Positions 13,618 through 43,689 of a stretch of DNA of 50,919 nucleotides are shown here, piece by piece. The notes beneath the pieces are model-generated. The model searched no databases. It was not told the DNA's origin and saw nothing but the letters and a program-made list of their open reading frames with translations. The translations under genes and the position numbers were made by a program. The number at the start of each line of letters is the position of its first letter. Position 1 is the stretch's first letter. The DNA comes from Desulfurivibrio sp. (GTDB lineage: Bacteria; Desulfobacterota; Desulfobulbia; Desulfobulbales; SURF-16): NCBI GenBank assembly GCA_003605035.1, contig QZKJ01000092.1:1-50919 (forward strand), read 5' to 3'.

Positions 13618-15273
13618 CTACCGGTCCACAACCCCGTCGCAGTCGTTGTCAACGCCATCCCTGTCCCAACGTCTGGCCGAATCCGGTTGGCCTGGATTGA
13701 CAAAGTAGTCGTCATCTTTGCAGTCGCCTTCACATTCGGTCCAGCCGTCTCCGTCATTGTCAGCGTCACTGCACACCTCCACGCAGCCCTCGTCAACAGT
13801 GCCGTCGCAGTTGTTGTCAATGCCGTCGCAGAGTTCAGGGGCGCCCGGATAGACGGTGCTGTCGCCATCCTTGCAGTCGCCGTCGCAGTCGGTCACGCCG
13901 TCTCCGTCGTTGTCGGCGTCGGAACACACTTCACAGCCTTCGTCAACGCTGCCGTCGCAGTTGTTGTCGATGCCGTCGTCGCATACCTCGGAGGCTGCCG
14001 GATTGACGGCGCTGCTGCTGTCGTTACAATCGCCGGCGCAGGTGGTCACGCCGTCATTGTCTGCATCGAGACACTCGCCGACCGAGAGCAGCGCATCAGC
14101 CACCTGCAGCAGTCCGTGGCCGTAATCGCCGTCCTCACCGACAGGGCCGAGGTCTTTGGCGGTTGCGGTAAGTGCGGTACGCACCTCTTCCGGGGTGATG
14201 GAGGAATCTACCGCATAGAGCATGGCCGCGGCCGCGGCCACATGGGGAGTGGCCATGGAGGTGCCGATGAAGTAGAAATAGTTCCACTCGCCGTCTTCAA
14301 AGGTTTCCTGCAGGATGCCGTCGCCGGCCTCTGTGTTGCCGCCGCCCGGGGCCACCAGGTCAAGTCCGGTGCCGCCGTTGGAGTAGGAGGCCACCGTGGC
14401 GTTGATGTCAACCGCGCCCACGGCGATGGTGTAGGGGGAAATGGCCGGATAACTGACGTTCTTGCTCCATCCCTCATTACCAGAGGCGCAGACAATGGTG
14501 ACGCCTTTTGCATGGGCGGCGGCCAGGGCCGGATCAAGGACCGGGTCCGAGGTGATCGGCGACTTGGCGCTCCAGCCCAGGCTCATGTTGATGACCGAGG
14601 CCCCGTTCTTCTCGGCAAAGGCAACGCCCTCGGCCAGATCCGCCGAGGTGCCGGAGCCGCTGTCATCGAGCACCTTGACCGGCATGACGCAGGCCCCATG
14701 GGCCAGACCGACCACGCCGAGGCCGTTGTCCGTCTTCTGGGCAATGGTGCCGGACACATGGGTGCCGTGGCCGGCCCCGTCCACCGGGTCATTGTCGTTG
14801 TTGACAATATCCGTCCCGGCCGCCACGCAGCCGATGCCGTCTTCAGCCCCGGCCGTCTTCAGACCGGTGTCGAGCACCGCCACGATGACGCTTTCCCCGG
14901 TGGTGATAGTCCAGGCCGCTTCGCTCTGTACCATGGGCATATTCCACTGTTTGCTGTACAGAGGGTCATTCGGGTCGGCAAAGGCCTGATATTTGAGGTT
15001 CAGGCCGCATTTTTTCCCCTTGCCCTGCAATAAGGCGACATGCCGCGCCTCCTGCCCTTTCGCCACCGCCAGCACCAGCAGCCCGGCATTGGGCAGCACC
15101 TTTTTAACGGTATAGCCAGCCGGCACCTGCGCCGGGGTACCGGCCATGACGATCTCCCCGGCCCTGAACATTTCCGCGGGCACGGCCTGATTCGCCGCGC
15201 CACAGGTGCCGTGGATGGCCACCACCCCGCAGACTGTCGTCACCATAAGACACTTCGACCATAACCTCTTCAT
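13618..15273 (-). CDS. Secreted S8 subtilisin-like protease with C-terminal MopE-type calcium/metal-binding repeats
   Basis: 551 residues. A signal peptide (about 1-26) and a propeptide precede the S8 catalytic domain: Asp135 (AVLDTG), His169 (GHGTHVSG), oxyanion Asn265 (ASGNEG) and Ser339 (GTSMATPHVA). All four key residues are present, so it should be active. The last about 150 residues (400-551) hold three copies of an Asp/Cys-rich repeat with DADNDG...C-x-GDC-(N/K)-D...C-DG-IDNNCDG-x-VDEGC, the MopE-type motif found in delta-proteobacterial exoproteins. Paired Cys suggest disulfides and Asp-rich loops suggest calcium binding. The last copy is altered (SARRWDRDGVDNDCDG). A GGAGGAG Shine-Dalgarno is present. 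It is divergent from the cpxR-like gene and shares its 405-bp upstream region. Confidence 0.9.
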   Translation of the reverse strand: MKRLWSKCLMVTTVCGVVAIHGTCGAANQAVPAEMFRAGEIVMAGTPAQVPAGYTVKKVLPNAGLLVLAVAKGQEARHVALLQGKGKKCGLNLKYQAFADPNDPLYSKQWNMPMVQSEAAWTITTGESVIVAVLDTGLKTAGAEDGIGCVAAGTDIVNNDNDPVDGAGHGTHVSGTIAQKTDNGLGVVGLAHGACVMPVKVLDDSGSGTSADLAEGVAFAEKNGASVINMSLGWSAKSPITSDPVLDPALAAAHAKGVTIVCASGNEGWSKNVSYPAISPYTIAVGAVDINATVASYSNGGTGLDLVAPGGGNTEAGDGILQETFEDGEWNYFYFIGTSMATPHVAAAAAMLYAVDSSITPEEVRTALTATAKDLGPVGEDGDYGHGLLQVADALLSVGECLDADNDGVTTCAGDCNDSSSAVNPAASEVCDDGIDNNCDGSVDEGCEVCSDADNDGDGVTDCDGDCKDGDSTVYPGAPELCDGIDNNCDGTVDEGCVEVCSDADNDGDGWTECEGDCKDDDYFVNPGQPDSARRWDRDGVDNDCDGVVDR

Positions 15274-37961: not shown

Positions 37962-40754
37962 TCATGCAACATGAATCTCCAGGGCGATGCCGCCCATGAC
38001 CTTTTTCGTCTTCACGCTGCGCTTCACCAGGTTGATATGGATGACCTCGCCCTTTTGCGCCTCCTTGGGCACAAAAACGCGCAGGCCCAGGTAGCGGTGC
38101 TGCTGGGGGGCCAGGATCAGCGAGAGGCGGGCGTCCCGGGTCTGGGCAAAGGGCTGGACCTTGTAGCCCGGAAAGAGCAGCTCGAGTTTTTCCGGGCTGG
38201 CCGAGGTGATGATGTCGTGGCGCATACCCGCCGTTACGGTTTTTGCCGCTGCCGTATGCCGTCCGGCCAGCAGCTCTTCAATCTCATGAATTTCCGGTTC
38301 AGGCGCGGGCAGGTTGCTCTTTTTCAGGGCATGCCGGGAGGTGTCCAGGGAGCGGAGGTAGATGAGTTCCCCCCGGAGGGCCGGGTATTTTTTCAGGCGC
38401 ACCAGTTCCAGGGTGTACTTGAGGCTGGCGCTGGACCAGCGGTTGGCCACCACAAAGGGCAGCACCACCCAGGTATCGGGCTGGGCGGCGATGATGGTCA
38501 GATTCTTCTGGGCCAGGCCATTCTGCTCCCAGACATGTTTGTTGGCCAGGGGATGATTGGTGCGGGAGAAAACCGCGGCCAGCAGGCAGGCATGGCTGCC
38601 GGCCGGCGGCACCAGCTCCCCGGGCCAGCGGGCCTTGACGATCACCGAGGCCCCGGGCGCCAGATCAAAGCCTGCGGCGGCGGCGGTGGCGGGCAGAAAA
38701 TCCTGGGGATAGACGAACTCCACCCCGGCATAGGATTTGACGCTGAAGGCCACGGCAAAATGAGCCACCCTGGTGCTGCTGCTCAGATTGCGCACCCGGG
38801 CATAGATCCAGTTGTCCCGGCCGCTGACCGGGCTCTGGTGGCTGAGCAGATCGTCCTCGCTGTTGCGCACCCACAGGTCCGGCGAATTCCAGAAGGAGCC
38901 GGAGGTCCACTGCTCGGTGCCGCTGTGGCTGAAATCGTCGCGCAGCCACACCTCCGGCGCCGGCGAGGGGTCGGCAAAACCGTAGACGAAGCGGTGAAAG
39001 GCATCGACGATCAGCGGGTCGCCCACCCGGCGCAGCAGGTACTCCTCAACCGCGGTGGTCCGCACCGGTTTGCCGTCCCACTCCGCGTAAAAGTCCCGCA
39101 TCAGGCCGTCGAGTGCCGTGGTGCCGACAAAACCGGCCATGCCCTGCCAGAAAGTGGTGCCTTTGGAATAGGACAGCCCGGCGGTCTTGCGCACCCAGGG
39201 GTTCTGCGGGCAGAGCTCCACCGGTGCGGCGGCGAAATCAAAGGGCACGCTCAGCGGCCCGCTGTCGATCTGGTAGGAGGTCCAGGCCTCATCCAGCCAG
39301 GCGTGCGGCTGGCCGGCCGGTTTCAGGCCGCGGCCCCACCAGCTGTGATAGGTCTCGTGGCGCAGGGCCGACTGGCCGGTGGTGGTGGCGCCGTCATATT
39401 CCATGCCGCCCTGGTGGATAAAGGCGACAAAGCGCTCGCCGTGCGGATAGGGGCCGATAGCCGTGGCATTCTCCGCCAGATACGTCTTGAGATTGTTCAC
39501 CTGGATGGCGAGGTTGGCCGGGTTGGCCAGGGTTTTCCAGGCCTCGATGGTGACCGTGGCCCCGGAGCCCGGCAGCACCACCGTATCAAAGAGGGAGGTC
39601 AGCGCATCGGCGGGCCGCAGTTCCACCAGGGGCGAGAAGGCGGCGCCGGCGGCCGGGAAGGCGGCCTGCCAATGGTTGACCCCCAGAGTGGTGACGCTGC
39701 CGTTGGTGATCAGGGTATGGGCGATGGCGGTGTTGACGATCTGCAGGGTGAGGAGCAGCTCGAACTGGTCAAAGACCAGGTTGGCCGGCACCCAGGCCTC
39801 CAGGTAGCGGCCCGGGACCAGATCGGTGAAGCCGAAATTGAAGGTCAGCCGCGGTCCGGCCGCCCAGCTGAGCTGCGGCAGGTAGGAGCCGACCATGGGA
39901 GACTGGGGCAGCCCCAGGCTGTAAGTGATCTGCAGCTCATGGGAGGTGCCGGCCGCCAGCACCCTCTCCAGCACCCGCAGCTCGGCGTTGGGACCGCCGC
40001 CCATATCATGGTGCCCTGCCTGCCCAGGCGGGATGGCATCCCCGTCCAGCCAGAGGCCGGTAATGGTCTGGCGGAGATCAAAGACGGGGTTGCCGCTGTG
40101 CCTGCCCAGCCTGAATTCCAGCAGGGCGCTGCCGGTGCCGGTGGCGGCAGCGGCGTTAAAGGTGAGAGTAGCCGTGATGCGGCTGATGTCCACCGGCACG
40201 GCCCACAGGCCGTCCACCGCCTTGGGCCGGGGGGCCAGCTCCAGATTGGTGCCAGCCACTTCGCCCAGGGCGGGCAGCATGTCCAGCAGACCGGCCAGCC
40301 CCGCGACGCACTCGTTGTCAGCAGGCTGGCAGGACCCGCTGTTGCGTTTCAAGATGGCCCGCCAGCCATAGCTGCGCGCCGCCGCAATATGACTGGCGGT
40401 TTCCGTGACGAAAATGCTCACCTGGCTCGCCTGGCCATGGCCGGCCTTCGTTAGCGCCAGATCAAAAATGGGCTGCGCCGGTTTGCCCAGGTTGCCGGCA
40501 ATCTCGGTGGAGATGGTCACCAGCTCCGGCTCGATGAAGCGGAGCAGGCCGAGGCTGTCCAGCCGGTTTTGCACCTGGCCGACGGTGGCGCCGGCCGGCT
40601 GGTTGGACAGCAGGCCCAGGCGATACCCTCTCTGCTGCAGGATCTGCAGGGTATCAAGACAGTCGCCGTACAGACGGTCCTGGTTGTTCTGGGAATAGAG
40701 CAGGGTATCGCCCAGGTCAAAAAACAGGGTGGCGGGAACAACGGCATTACTCAT
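37962..40754 (-). CDS. HAD-like domain fused to an M1-family-like zinc metallopeptidase
   Basis: 930 residues, no signal peptide. Residues about 1-160 have a HAD fold: motif I FFDLGDTL (Asp13), motif II LLSNQ (Ser50), Lys91 (GKPAQPI). The usual acidic motif IV (GDxxxD) is replaced by TETASH, so phosphatase activity is doubtful. The middle is M1-like: GGMEYDG (GAMEN-like), H466ETYH470 with Glu489 (HExxH-x18-E), and a Tyr-Ser-Lys-Gly segment (YSKGTTFWQ) for the catalytic Tyr. From about 630 on, a beta-rich tail is homologous to that of the next gene (DNW-(I)-YA; FDLAPG; LELVR). The Shine-Dalgarno is AGGAAAA. It lies 151 bases downstream of the M36-like gene; together they look like an operon. 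Confidence 0.8.
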   Translation of the reverse strand: MSNAVVPATLFFDLGDTLLYSQNNQDRLYGDCLDTLQILQQRGYRLGLLSNQPAGATVGQVQNRLDSLGLLRFIEPELVTISTEIAGNLGKPAQPIFDLALTKAGHGQASQVSIFVTETASHIAAARSYGWRAILKRNSGSCQPADNECVAGLAGLLDMLPALGEVAGTNLELAPRPKAVDGLWAVPVDISRITATLTFNAAAATGTGSALLEFRLGRHSGNPVFDLRQTITGLWLDGDAIPPGQAGHHDMGGGPNAELRVLERVLAAGTSHELQITYSLGLPQSPMVGSYLPQLSWAAGPRLTFNFGFTDLVPGRYLEAWVPANLVFDQFELLLTLQIVNTAIAHTLITNGSVTTLGVNHWQAAFPAAGAAFSPLVELRPADALTSLFDTVVLPGSGATVTIEAWKTLANPANLAIQVNNLKTYLAENATAIGPYPHGERFVAFIHQGGMEYDGATTTGQSALRHETYHSWWGRGLKPAGQPHAWLDEAWTSYQIDSGPLSVPFDFAAAPVELCPQNPWVRKTAGLSYSKGTTFWQGMAGFVGTTALDGLMRDFYAEWDGKPVRTTAVEEYLLRRVGDPLIVDAFHRFVYGFADPSPAPEVWLRDDFSHSGTEQWTSGSFWNSPDLWVRNSEDDLLSHQSPVSGRDNWIYARVRNLSSSTRVAHFAVAFSVKSYAGVEFVYPQDFLPATAAAAGFDLAPGASVIVKARWPGELVPPAGSHACLLAAVFSRTNHPLANKHVWEQNGLAQKNLTIIAAQPDTWVVLPFVVANRWSSASLKYTLELVRLKKYPALRGELIYLRSLDTSRHALKKSNLPAPEPEIHEIEELLAGRHTAAAKTVTAGMRHDIITSASPEKLELLFPGYKVQPFAQTRDARLSLILAPQQHRYLGLRVFVPKEAQKGEVIHINLVKRSVKTKKVMGGIALEIHVA

Positions 40755-40780
40755 AATTTTCCTTTCTTTCTCATCATTTT

Positions 40781-40855
40781 CAGGAGACAGGAGACAGAAT
40801 GATTGATGTGATTACGTTTTATTCCGGCTCCTGACTCCTGACTTCTGACTCCTCA
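40781..40855. repeat. Short heptad/direct repeats between the two peptidase genes
   Basis: AGGAGAC is repeated near 40782-40796 and CTCCTGA-type heptads are repeated near 40828-40854. This simple-repeat region can slip. A weak hairpin (AGAGGCCC...GGGGCCTCT) lies next to it near 40865-40893 and could attenuate transcription from the M36-like gene into the HAD-M1 gene. Confidence 0.4.
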
Positions 40856-40905
40856 AACAGACAGAGGCCCGGCCGATCAGGCGGGGCCTCTGCCGTGGCG
40901 GGCTC

Positions 40906-43689
40906 TCACTTGCGAGCTTTGGCCGCCGCCTGCTTCTTCGTGGTCGCGCTGACCTTATTGACGGTCGGCGTGGTCTTCACCTTGACCTCGGCCCGGCTGA
41001 CCGGCGGTTTGACAATGACGGGCGGTTTTTTCCTGTCCACCACCCGAACCCGCACATCAAAGCCGCCGATGAACTCACCCCTGGCATTGCGCTGCACGAA
41101 TTCCACGGTGAACTCCTCGCCCGGTTTGGCACCCGCCGGGGCCTTGACCGTCACCTTCAGGGTCCGGCGCTGGTGCGGTTTCATCATGTAGACGAAACCT
41201 GTGCGGATGCCCGGTTTCAGCCTCAGGGCGCTGCCCTCCTTCTGTTTGGCCAGCACGGCGTCACAACGGGTGAATACGCTTTTGGCCGCGGCAGACTGGG
41301 CGGCGGGTTCGATTTTCCTGAGCATCATGGTGGAATCCGGGGCAAGATTCAGCACAATCTGCTCATCCGCCTTGCCGCCCTCCACCTCGACCCGGGCCGC
41401 GTCCAGGAAGCGCACCGCGGGCTGGCCCTCGACAAGCAGTTCCTGCTGGCCGGCCAGAGGCTTCACCGCCAGCTGCTGGGCCTGCTGCAGCAGTTCCTCG
41501 ATGACCGAGGCGTTATGGTGGGAAAAAGAGACCAGCAGCCCGGGCCAGCGGTCGGGCCGGATTACCTCGAGGCGCACCAGTCGCTCTTTCTTGATATGAA
41601 AATTGCTGATGGTGAACTGAAAATCAGCCGACTCGTCGGGCAGCAGGTCGATAATATCGGTGTTGCACTGGCGCAGCTTGCCGTTGCTGGCGCCGATGCT
41701 GGCCGCCCCGGCCGGCACATGGTCAACCGGATTATAGATCTCCGCCAGGATGCAGCCGTGCAGCTGCGCCTGGCCGGGAGGGATGGCCGGAATCAAATCC
41801 TTGTCCCAGCGGCCCCAGATGGTGCGCGTCTCGCCGGGGGCCAGATCGAACTCCGCCACGGCGCTGATGATATTGTTCCTGAAATCAGCCGGATAGACCG
41901 GGGTGGAAAACGGAGTCTTGAAGCTGAAGTTCACCACCAGCGAGCGGGCGGCCGTGGTGCCCTGGTTGGTGATCACCGCATAGAACCAGTTGTCCTGGCC
42001 AAACTCCACCCGCTCCCAGCTTCTGATGCTGAGGTTATCCTGCTGGGACCACAGGCCGGTCAGCCGGATATTGGAGCCGGTCTGGCACTCCAGGATTTCC
42101 CGGTCGTGAAACTCGTCGAGCATGGGGACGAGCTGCCGGCCGCACTGATCCTCCAGTTCCTCATGGATACTCATCAACGCCTCGGCCGCCTCGGGCATGG
42201 AGGCGCTGGCGGTGAGCAGCCGGTGGCTGGCGATCAGGGCCTTGAGCAGAATGTCCCGCGGCTCCTCCCAGTCGGCCACCATGGGCGAATCGCCGCCCAT
42301 GGCCAGGAAGATATTCCACAGGGCGCCTGCCCAGATTTCGCTGTTGGCGTAAAACGAGGCGCTGGTGGAAAAGGCGGAATAGAGCTTGTCATGGTCGACC
42401 CGGCGCAGCCCGCGCAGGCCGTCGCCCAGATCGTTATGGACAAAAACCCAGTCCTCCATGACCTGCCGCTGGTAGCCGTTGCCGTGCAGGATATTATAGA
42501 GCACCGCCATGATGTCGCCGAAACCTTCACCGATGGCCCGGCTCTCATAACGGCTGGTGCCCGGTACCGGCGTGCCCCAGCCAGGCACCATGTCATCTTC
42601 AATGGCATGGCCGTACTCATGGACCATGCAGTCCGAATCCTCGGCCCGGTCCGGCTGGGTGGGCCCGGAATCGGAAAAGTGCAGGTCCTTGGTGCCGGGC
42701 GAATACCAGGCGGCAGTTATGCTGTTGTCATGGGGGTCGGCGTCGATCGCCCGGTTGTTGGCGTCATTGATGCCCAGGGTGTCCTGGATGTAGCGCTGCA
42801 GGCTGTCGATGTGATAGTAAACATTGACCGCCTCGAAATCATCAGCCGTGCGGTCATAGTTGAAGCCCGTGGCGCTGGCCTCCTGGGGAATGCCGATATT
42901 GGGGTTGGCCAGATTGACGATATTGCAGAATGGCCCGGTGAGGGTGTAGTTGCCCCCCACCGGCCCGGTGATATCCCGCAGGGTGACGGTCTGCCGTTCG
43001 CCATTCAGGGTGGCCTCCGGGGTGGTGCCTTCCCGGATGGTATTGTCGTTCAGGGTGACAACCGGGCTCGGGTTAAAGACCATGCCCTGGCCGTCAATGA
43101 ACATGATGCGGTCCTCCAGGGCCAGCACGGCGCCGTTTTTCGCGTCCACATAGACAAACCAGTCATGGGGCGGCTGCAGGGTGTTGGCCGTGACCAGCCA
43201 GGCCAGCCGCAGGCCGGCCGCCGTGCGGAAATAGACCCTGTCGGTGCTCAGTTTGCCTTTCGGCCTGACGGTGAAATTCTCGCCCACCGCCTCGCGCATG
43301 ATCTTCTCCGCCTCGGCAGCCGAGATCTTCTGGTCCTTGGCCGTGGTAAGCACCGACTCGCGCAGCTGATGGTTGGCGGTGATCCGCCGGGCAAAACCGG
43401 CCCGGTCGGTGTGCACCACCACCTCGCCGCCCACTACCTGCACCCCGTCAATGAACTGCTGGAAGCGGACATAATTGCCGGTGGAGGTCGCCTTGCTCTG
43501 CGTGACCTGCAGATCCTTTTTGTCGGTGGACAGCCGCAGGGTGGCGCCGAGCTCGGTCAGCAACGCCAACGCCGCCTTCTCAGGTGTATCTTTCGGCGAT
43601 ACAGCCACCCGGCAGTCAATTTTCCTGGGGATGGCTGTTTTCGCATCATATTGAATTCTCGCATTTTTCATTATATCGGCTAATTTCAT
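40906..43689 (-). CDS. M36-like metallopeptidase with FTP propeptide domain and shared C-terminal module
   Basis: 927 residues, no signal peptide. The N-terminal region (about 60-200) has FTP/PepSY propeptide features: (G)-NYVRFQQFIDGVQVVGGE and VYFRTAAGLRLAW...VTA. The catalytic domain has His357-EYGH361 and Glu388 in GEGFGD, as in fungalysin (EGWSD), so all zinc ligands are present. After about 550 come two beta-rich domains with DNWFYAVITN, FDLAPGETRTIWGRWD, and LVRLEVIRPDRWPG that parallel the neighbour's. A Lys/Ala-rich end (VSATTKKQAAAKARK) closes the protein. M36 enzymes are normally secreted; here no export signal is visible. An AAAGGAA Shine-Dalgarno is present. Confidence 0.82.
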   Translation of the reverse strand: MKLADIMKNARIQYDAKTAIPRKIDCRVAVSPKDTPEKAALALLTELGATLRLSTDKKDLQVTQSKATSTGNYVRFQQFIDGVQVVGGEVVVHTDRAGFARRITANHQLRESVLTTAKDQKISAAEAEKIMREAVGENFTVRPKGKLSTDRVYFRTAAGLRLAWLVTANTLQPPHDWFVYVDAKNGAVLALEDRIMFIDGQGMVFNPSPVVTLNDNTIREGTTPEATLNGERQTVTLRDITGPVGGNYTLTGPFCNIVNLANPNIGIPQEASATGFNYDRTADDFEAVNVYYHIDSLQRYIQDTLGINDANNRAIDADPHDNSITAAWYSPGTKDLHFSDSGPTQPDRAEDSDCMVHEYGHAIEDDMVPGWGTPVPGTSRYESRAIGEGFGDIMAVLYNILHGNGYQRQVMEDWVFVHNDLGDGLRGLRRVDHDKLYSAFSTSASFYANSEIWAGALWNIFLAMGGDSPMVADWEEPRDILLKALIASHRLLTASASMPEAAEALMSIHEELEDQCGRQLVPMLDEFHDREILECQTGSNIRLTGLWSQQDNLSIRSWERVEFGQDNWFYAVITNQGTTAARSLVVNFSFKTPFSTPVYPADFRNNIISAVAEFDLAPGETRTIWGRWDKDLIPAIPPGQAQLHGCILAEIYNPVDHVPAGAASIGASNGKLRQCNTDIIDLLPDESADFQFTISNFHIKKERLVRLEVIRPDRWPGLLVSFSHHNASVIEELLQQAQQLAVKPLAGQQELLVEGQPAVRFLDAARVEVEGGKADEQIVLNLAPDSTMMLRKIEPAAQSAAAKSVFTRCDAVLAKQKEGSALRLKPGIRTGFVYMMKPHQRRTLKVTVKAPAGAKPGEEFTVEFVQRNARGEFIGGFDVRVRVVDRKKPPVIVKPPVSRAEVKVKTTPTVNKVSATTKKQAAAKARK

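Follow-up and report, generated by a model that had tools for sequence, protein, structure and literature searches.

What brings two large zinc peptidases of unrelated families side by side, both apparently without an export signal and both carrying the same C-terminal module? The question is raised by a 50,919-nucleotide stretch of Desulfurivibrio sp. (the window; GenBank assembly GCA_003605035.1, contig QZKJ01000092.1, positions 1 to 50,919), in which two genes lie head to tail on the minus strand, gene B upstream, gene A downstream and 151 bases between them. With a probability of roughly 0.6, judging from sequence, A and B are working enzymes of a patchily distributed cassette that joins a zinc endopeptidase to a zinc exopeptidase, mostly without a recognisable export signal. 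An endopeptidase together with an exopeptidase is the simplest common logic of the variants described below. The two genes and their parts are as follows.

40906 to 43689, minus strand: protein B (927 amino acids), with FTP and PepSY propeptide, M36 domain, C-terminal module and basic tail (open reading frame list, Pfam, hydropathy; no signal peptide seen)
43120 to 43515, minus strand: FTP and PepSY propeptide motifs, residues 59-190 of B (PF07504 at 33.9 bits, PF03413 at 20.3 bits)
42130 to 43092, minus strand: M36 (fungalysin-type) catalytic domain, residues 200-520 of B (PF02128 at 43 bits; PDB 7qp3, E=5.9e-5)
42607 to 42621, minus strand: HEYGH zinc-binding motif of B, residues 357-361 (sequence motif)
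41038 to 42129, minus strand: CARDB/NEW3-like module homologous to that of A, residues 521-884 of B (BLASTP, profile comparison, shuffle test)
37962 to 40754, minus strand: protein A (930 amino acids), with HAD domain, M1-like zinc aminopeptidase domain and C-terminal module (open reading frame list, Pfam, hydropathy; no signal peptide seen)
40305 to 40733, minus strand: HAD-like domain, residues 8-150 of A (PF00702 below threshold, motifs, score of a congener)
38955 to 40247, minus strand: M1-like gluzincin domain, residues 170-600 of A (invariant residues; profile match to 6a8z_A)
39345 to 39359, minus strand: HETYH zinc-binding motif of A, residues 466-470 (sequence motif)
37965 to 38951, minus strand: CARDB/NEW3-like module, residues 602-930 of A (BLASTP, profile comparison, shuffle test)

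Recurrence of the pair in named genomes

When named genomes were scanned with two query peptides taken from the module, and none from any partner, 59 loci were returned, 31 of which carry an A-type M1 domain (tblastn). A second, unrelated zinc peptidase lies beside A in 28 of these 31, directly or with one gene between, and is read from the same strand in 27 of the 28 (it is divergent in L066). Judged by this adjacency, the two enzymes appear to form a genuine and conserved system for proteolysis. An earlier note on this DNA, which had proposed a new proteolytic system and asked for co-occurrence in other genomes as a check, is supported in part: co-occurrence is found, which makes a system likely. 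Its further idea, that the shared C-terminal module defines the pair, is not supported in that form, because 21 of the 28 partners are metzincins and the family to which most of them belong shows no relation to the module (profile probability 3.9).

The partner is a B-type M36 peptidase with the module in two loci (L039, L065), an M36-like protein with the module and an HExxxH motif in five (L042, L047, L051, L056, L069), a signal-less metzincin of about 700 residues (family c1) in 18, and a signal-bearing metzincin (family c17) in three. HExxHxxxxxH and a conserved Met are invariant in the 10 of the 18 c1 proteins that were aligned (alignment A7). The intergenic gap between the M36 and M1 genes is 3 bp in L047 and 2 bp in L065, and in the latter the M1 and HAD genes overlap. 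Three A-type loci are without a partner (L038, L044, L061), and in each the sequence upstream of A breaks off after at most about 1.4 kb. Locus L038 is contig C42 of a Desulfurivibrio genome (G003) that carries the B-A pair, which resolves one of the three misses.

By record title the hosts belong to seven phyla: Pseudomonadota, Bacteroidota, Actinomycetota, Acidobacteriota, Planctomycetota, Cyanobacteriota and Gemmatimonadota, the last four represented by metagenome-assembled genomes (MAGs) only. Hosts whose titles do not mark them as MAGs include Massilia, Pseudomonas, Hymenobacter, Dyadobacter, Paractinoplanes, Amycolatopsis, Variovorax and Ruegeria, and bin contamination therefore does not explain the pairing. 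In a sample of 199 genomes from the same genus as one Pseudomonas host, the metzincin was found in two and A in two (E<=1e-20); these are the same two genomes, the genes are adjacent, and neither occurs alone. Since one of the two genomes is the centre of the sample, the independent cases number 1 in 198. The other 28 of the 59 loci are without an A-type M1 domain, and 20 proteins from 19 of these and one more were scanned with Pfam.

Catalytic domains and export signals of A and B

The zinc site of A consists of HETYH at residues 466-470 and, after 18 residues, E489 (HExxH-x18-E). M451-E452-Y453, H466-E467-H470 and E489 are invariant in all 26 rows of an alignment of A-type proteins (A5, in which the window is joined by 25 of the 31 named loci, while L038, L052, L053, L055, L064 and L068 are left out), and HExxH and MEY are present in four further A-type proteins outside it. 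The zinc site fits the reading of A as M1-like, with a small correction to the family assignment: A scores 12.9 bits against Pfam M1, under the cut-off of 27.7, and is for this reason called M1-like here. The A5 profile matches the M1-like PDB chain 6a8z_A (E=2.9e-4); 6a8z is labelled in the database as a putative zinc metalloprotease, and we take it to be an M1 enzyme. In common with M1 aminopeptidases, A has HExxH-x18-E, a GGMEY motif and this profile match; it differs from them in its Pfam score, in its fusion to HAD and the module, and in MEY, the classical M1 motif being MEN. Its HAD domain scores 21.4 bits against PF00702 (cut-off 26.4), orthologues reach 30.5 (a congener) and 29.9 bits, and the HAD motifs include DLGDT at D13 (motif I, DxGDT), S50, K91 and a Glu in motif IV.

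In protein B the M36 and FTP domains pass their Pfam cut-offs (23.3 and 21 bits, respectively), PepSY falls under its own (24 bits), and the HEYGH motif beginning at residue 357 is accompanied by GEGFGD. B thus resembles M36 fungalysin/thermolysin-like peptidases with an FTP propeptide, PepSY being just under threshold, and differs from them in having no export signal that could be seen, a CARDB/NEW3-like tail and an M1-like neighbour. The catalytic parts of A and B score 33 when aligned with each other, compared with a mean of 38 over 300 shuffles, no better than shuffled sequence.

Signal calls were made with a Kyte-Doolittle rule, namely the highest hydropathy of any 15 residues within the first 60, and not with a dedicated predictor; because the first in-frame start was used, some N-termini may be too long. 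By this heuristic the maximum is 1.37 in A and 1.35 in B, so neither has a hydrophobic N-terminus, in agreement with the earlier note. The M36 family is usually exported with a signal peptide. A hydrophobic N-terminus is likewise missing from all 30 A-type proteins tested, from all 11 B-type and M36-like proteins and from all 18 c1 metzincins.

The shared C-terminal module

The tails of A and B are homologous. BLASTP aligns residues 602-929 of A with 521-883 of B at 27% identity (E=2e-22), and the tail alignment scores 234, against a mean of 35 (standard deviation 4.7, maximum 54) over 500 shuffles of the B tail. In a profile-profile comparison of 26 A-type with 11 B-type or M36-like proteins (the latter forming alignment A6), the match has a probability of 100 and E=1.6e-57 over 352 columns and is confined to the tails. 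The motifs that the note had quoted (NW-YA, YP-DF, FDLAPG and RLEVIRP/TLELVR) all lie within the A/B tail alignment. Residues 602-930 of A and 521-884 of B are therefore one homologous CARDB/NEW3-like module. The note's claim of a shared tail on unrelated catalytic domains is confirmed; the length of the module, put at about 300 residues, needs correction to about 330-360.

The name given to the module comes from its relatives. On A and B themselves Pfam reports no CARDB line and, in B, NEW3 at 16.7 bits (cut-off 24.4), so that neither cut-off is passed. Relatives of the module elsewhere do exceed the cut-offs, for CARDB (PF07705) in L080, L076, L084 and L088 and for NEW3/NPCBM_assoc (PF10633) in L036. 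A PDB search with the module profile gave no match below E=0.12.

The module is a movable, general C-terminal part: it is also carried by subtilases, a C13-like peptidase, a stand-alone protein, separate HAD proteins, an M14 protein and exported-looking proteins. The C13-like peptidase (L034:6874-9306; 20.8 of 22.8 bits) carries the module and a Cys-containing tail, and its tail is 35.5% identical over 363 residues to that of an S8 subtilase, although the catalytic types differ. In another locus (L014:4255-8847) a module-bearing subtilase adjoins a DUF2278 protein with a lamin-tail-like domain. An origin of the pair by plain tandem duplication of a single gene was considered and set aside, as the catalytic domains of A and B are unrelated. 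The module is also common only to the M36 and HAD versions and is not a universal glue, the signal-less metzincin partner being without it; no metzincin partner was found among the open reading frames matched by the module of A or B.

Fission, replacement and variant partners

In a gammaproteobacterial locus (L065) M36, M1 and HAD are encoded by three successive genes, each with its own module, and in Ruegeria (L069) by separate genes in the order M1, HAD, M36, again all with the module. The HAD domain is fused to A in the window and 14 named loci, separate in these two, and was not found near A in 13; its state is not decidable in L038 and L064. The existence of three-gene and fused versions suggests that HAD, M1 and M36 work together, and the finding of HAD in fused, separate and missing states makes it look like an accessory.

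Both slots of the pair may be filled by other enzymes. In Caballeronia insecticola a metzincin and its small companion (c2, see below) have as neighbour, in place of A, an M14 carboxypeptidase that carries a VWA domain and is read divergently. In a Mesorhizobium locus the gene of an M36-like module protein precedes one for a histidine-phosphatase-like protein and then one for an M28 peptidase. Neither the Caballeronia M14 nor the Mesorhizobium M28 protein has a hydrophobic N-terminus. L074 has an M14 protein immediately before a subtilase, both with the module, and M14 is found near a subtilase in L075 and L089; elsewhere in the window's own genome no M14 was detected. In Burkholderia stagnalis (L029:5461-8586) an M36-type protein (HELGH) adjoins an M28-like protein, both with signal-like N-termini and with no module found; they are perhaps an exported counterpart of the same endo-exo pairing.

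The HExxH and GEGFGD motifs are replaced by HExxxH and HSAGD in the M36-like proteins of five loci:

L042:3526-6675
L047:3696-6707
L051:3591-6674
L056:3629-6634
L069:10666-13725

The three of these that were scanned (L042, L047, L069) have no Pfam match at E<=0.01, and judged by its motifs this form may represent a new variant of the zinc site. HExxxH also occurs in dipeptidyl peptidase III.

The small protein c2 (99-134 residues) accompanies c1 in 17 of 18 loci (e.g. L040:5805-6200) and also lies beside it in L131 and L132; neither the window nor any of the 10 loci with a different partner yielded it. One of three c2 proteins scanned is weakly like Lipocalin_4 (17.8 of 22.4 bits). The c2 proteins of L040, L059 and L132 have a hydrophobic N-terminus (two of the 17, plus the Caballeronia one). 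By analogy with protealysin and emfourin, c2 may be a candidate inhibitor or immunity protein.

Distribution and descent

Within the window's own genome the module was found only in A and B. Among 58 related genomes, the own genome included, a module match was obtained in four: the own genome, two congeners with a B-A pair and one congener with a module-bearing subtilase. One of the two congeners (G001) has the genes adjacent, with the same penicillin-binding-protein-like flanking gene as the window (from reading the sequence). In the other (G003) B is followed by the start of A at a contig end, with the end of A on a second contig, where the gene after A (L013:1117-4296) reads by eye as leucine-rich-repeat, GTPase and TIR-like. 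Wider samples, both counting the own genome, gave module matches in 7 of 242 genomes of the class (E<=0.01) and 9 of 395 of the phylum (E<=0.001). With so patchy a distribution, horizontal transfer of the cassette is likely, though not proved.

A tree of A-type M1 domains was built from 30 rows, i.e. the window and 29 of the 31 loci, leaving out L038 (cut by a contig end) and L064 (39 residues matched). The phyla are to some extent intermixed on it: a planctomycete row falls with Burkholderiales (100/89) and the cyanobacterial one with Pseudomonas (100/99), both rows coming from MAGs. Two features of the tree keep transfer from being proved: its phylum labels require eight changes, where the minimum is six and the shuffled mean 9.7, with counts as low in 7 of 200 shuffles, and 7 of its 27 inner branches are open. 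L065 and L069 form long branches that pair with each other, a grouping that may be false. Partner type clusters on the tree, with six changes against a shuffled mean of 10.4 (28 rows; none of 300 shuffles as low), and remains clustered without the 10 Pseudomonas-type rows (6 vs. 9.7; 1/300 as low). HAD fusion needs three changes against 10.3 (0/300 as low); without the same ten rows the contrast of 3 with 4.5 (18/300 as low) is not convincing.

Two vehicles were considered and set aside. A phage-borne element was rejected, A having no match in a phage collection and B none among viral contigs; one contig of a viral collection carries a metzincin with c2 (L131:1815-4346), with no A within the fetched stretch. 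A plasmid-borne cassette was rejected likewise: A had no match, and for the Massilia M1 protein the sole match, in Mesorhizobium, was to the module.

Proposed mechanism

We suggest the following model. After removal of its propeptide B, or the metzincin that replaces it, would cut proteins internally, and A would trim the new N-termini, so that the two together could dismantle proteins. The CARDB/NEW3-like module may act in docking, guiding the M36 and HAD/M1 enzymes to a common partner or surface; in the metzincin versions something other than the module would have to bring the enzymes together. The HAD domain would be an accessory, either a phosphatase or structural, and the site of action might be inside the cell, after lysis, or in a cell into which the enzymes are injected.

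Stretched further, and as a tentative idea that we consider possible rather than probable, the variants may belong to an undescribed two-slot class, with M36, HExxxH M36-like, metzincin or subtilase enzymes in the endopeptidase slot and M1, M14 or M28 enzymes in the exopeptidase slot. Such a class would be horizontally spread, mostly without export signals, provided with the shared CARDB/NEW3-like or an alternative docking module, with HAD as accessory and with the lipocalin-like c2 as immunity protein or inhibitor in the metzincin versions, and would be used as a delivered weapon that dismantles proteins. Bacterial peptidases have mostly been studied singly. If this is true, unrelated endo- and exopeptidases that are swapped while the pairing stays would represent a new organising principle for proteolysis, and a conserved cassette would supply a role for many genes now called hypothetical or named only loosely. 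It would also raise the question of how large signal-less peptidases get to their substrates and by what means the producing cell withstands them. No description of such a pair was found in open-access literature searches, subscription papers lying mostly outside them, and the term 'M36' is absent from the main text of PMC8213781 and PMC11297309.

A number of observations weigh against the cassette as proposed. The aminopeptidase activity of A is predicted from its family. The three c17 metzincins all have a hydrophobic N-terminus while their own A proteins do not, and one docking mechanism does not fit all versions, since the signal-less metzincin is without the module. In L064 the M1 match covers only 39 residues and lacks the zinc motif of A, and in L044 and L061 the 4-5 kb downstream of A are also without a partner. 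The members of the pair occur apart as well: L079 has a B-type M36 with the module and no A in a 15.9-kb stretch, no A was found in the genomes of L063 and L079 (both MAGs), and the genome of L044 has an M36-like gene with the module on another contig, without A beside it. Metzincins without A are found in L131 (with no exopeptidase by the queries used) and L132, and the neighbourhoods of distant metzincins (24-28% identity) from Halocatena and Methylobacterium show no annotated exopeptidase of these families. Replacement by M14 or by M28 beside a zinc endopeptidase is known from one locus in each case, and M14 lies near a module-bearing S8 subtilase in 3 of 12 named loci and in none of seven further unnamed ones.

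Alternative explanations and known systems

The pair might be cargo of a contractile injection system, either extracellular (eCIS) or type VI (T6SS), or be released by lysis, with c2 as immunity protein or inhibitor in the metzincin versions; we find this possible but doubtful. The own genome encodes an eCIS-like cluster (L141:1145-15784 on contig C62 of G000: Pvc16_N at 133 bits, an AAA ATPase, Baseplate_J at 49.7 and CIS_tube at 26.1 of 27 bits) and two VipB sheath genes (contigs C87 and C32), which permits, without showing, delivery as cargo. Like eCIS and T6SS effectors, the pair is enzymatic, without signal peptide and patchy (two of the 199 Pseudomonas-genus genomes); it differs from them in being encoded on another contig (C24) than these genes, the other open reading frames of the window not having been scanned for such genes, and in that Pfam reports no marker domain in A or B. 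A search for DUF4157 (eCIS_core) gave no match, and its control was empty too, so the result is uninformative. The near-constant company of c2 and the signal-less metzincin would suit an effector with its immunity protein. The intracellular M4 peptidase protealysin shares one operon with its inhibitor emfourin and has been suggested to act as an interbacterial effector (PMC9505478). The likeness to the present pair lies in an intracellular metallopeptidase with an operon partner and in the arrangement of the small companion, which c2 resembles (PMC9505478). The two systems differ in their peptidase families (the window pair is M1-like and M36, not M4 with emfourin), in that the conserved partner here is a second enzyme, and in that the inhibitor role of c2 is only putative. 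It also counts against the cargo reading that no c2 was found in the window or in loci with other partners, and the hydrophobic N-terminus of two of the 17 c2 proteins and of the Caballeronia one would be odd for a cytosolic immunity protein.

Ordinary nutrient scavenging, in which the enzymes leave the cell by an unrecognised route or by lysis and digest proteins outside while the module binds cell wall or polymer, appears unlikely. An endopeptidase combined with an exopeptidase would suit full digestion, the c17 partners have a signal peptide by hydropathy, other bearers of the module (L036, L086, L088) look exported, and the signal-like Burkholderia stagnalis neighbours fit the same picture. 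CARDB is described as a cell-adhesion related domain (PMC4631099). For classically exported enzymes, however, the lack of a hydrophobic N-terminus throughout the A-type, B-type/M36-like and c1 proteins would be unusual.

A cytosolic defence or cell-death module, whose peptidases stay inactive until infection or damage, is very unlikely. One module-bearing subtilase weakly matches two PADLOC models, subtilase (58.9 bits) and IetS (44.7 bits); a second, without a signal by eye, is followed by a caspase-like gene (L018:647-4412). The window pair has a type I restriction locus nearby (HsdM/HsdS-like from reading the sequence). However, PADLOC gave no match at E<=0.01 for one each of A, B, metzincin, c2, HAD-module protein and HExxxH M36 form, no sensor or ATPase appeared among the clusters common to at least three of 33 loci (clusters named only in part), and A is without a match in the phage collection. 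A reading of the module as a widespread Ig-like add-on, with the adjacency functionally meaningless, is most improbable: the module does sit on many unrelated proteins, but adjacency holds in 28 of 31 loci, and duplication of the module does not explain it because 21 of the adjacent partners are without one.

Two other peptidase genes deserve mention beside the pair. The window itself encodes a 551-residue subtilase with MopE-type metal-binding motifs (13618 to 15273, minus strand), which was not picked up by the module search of the own genome. In Dyadobacter an M4 peptidase that recalls protealysin, with no signal by eye (L060:9117-10223), adjoins the metzincin-A pair.

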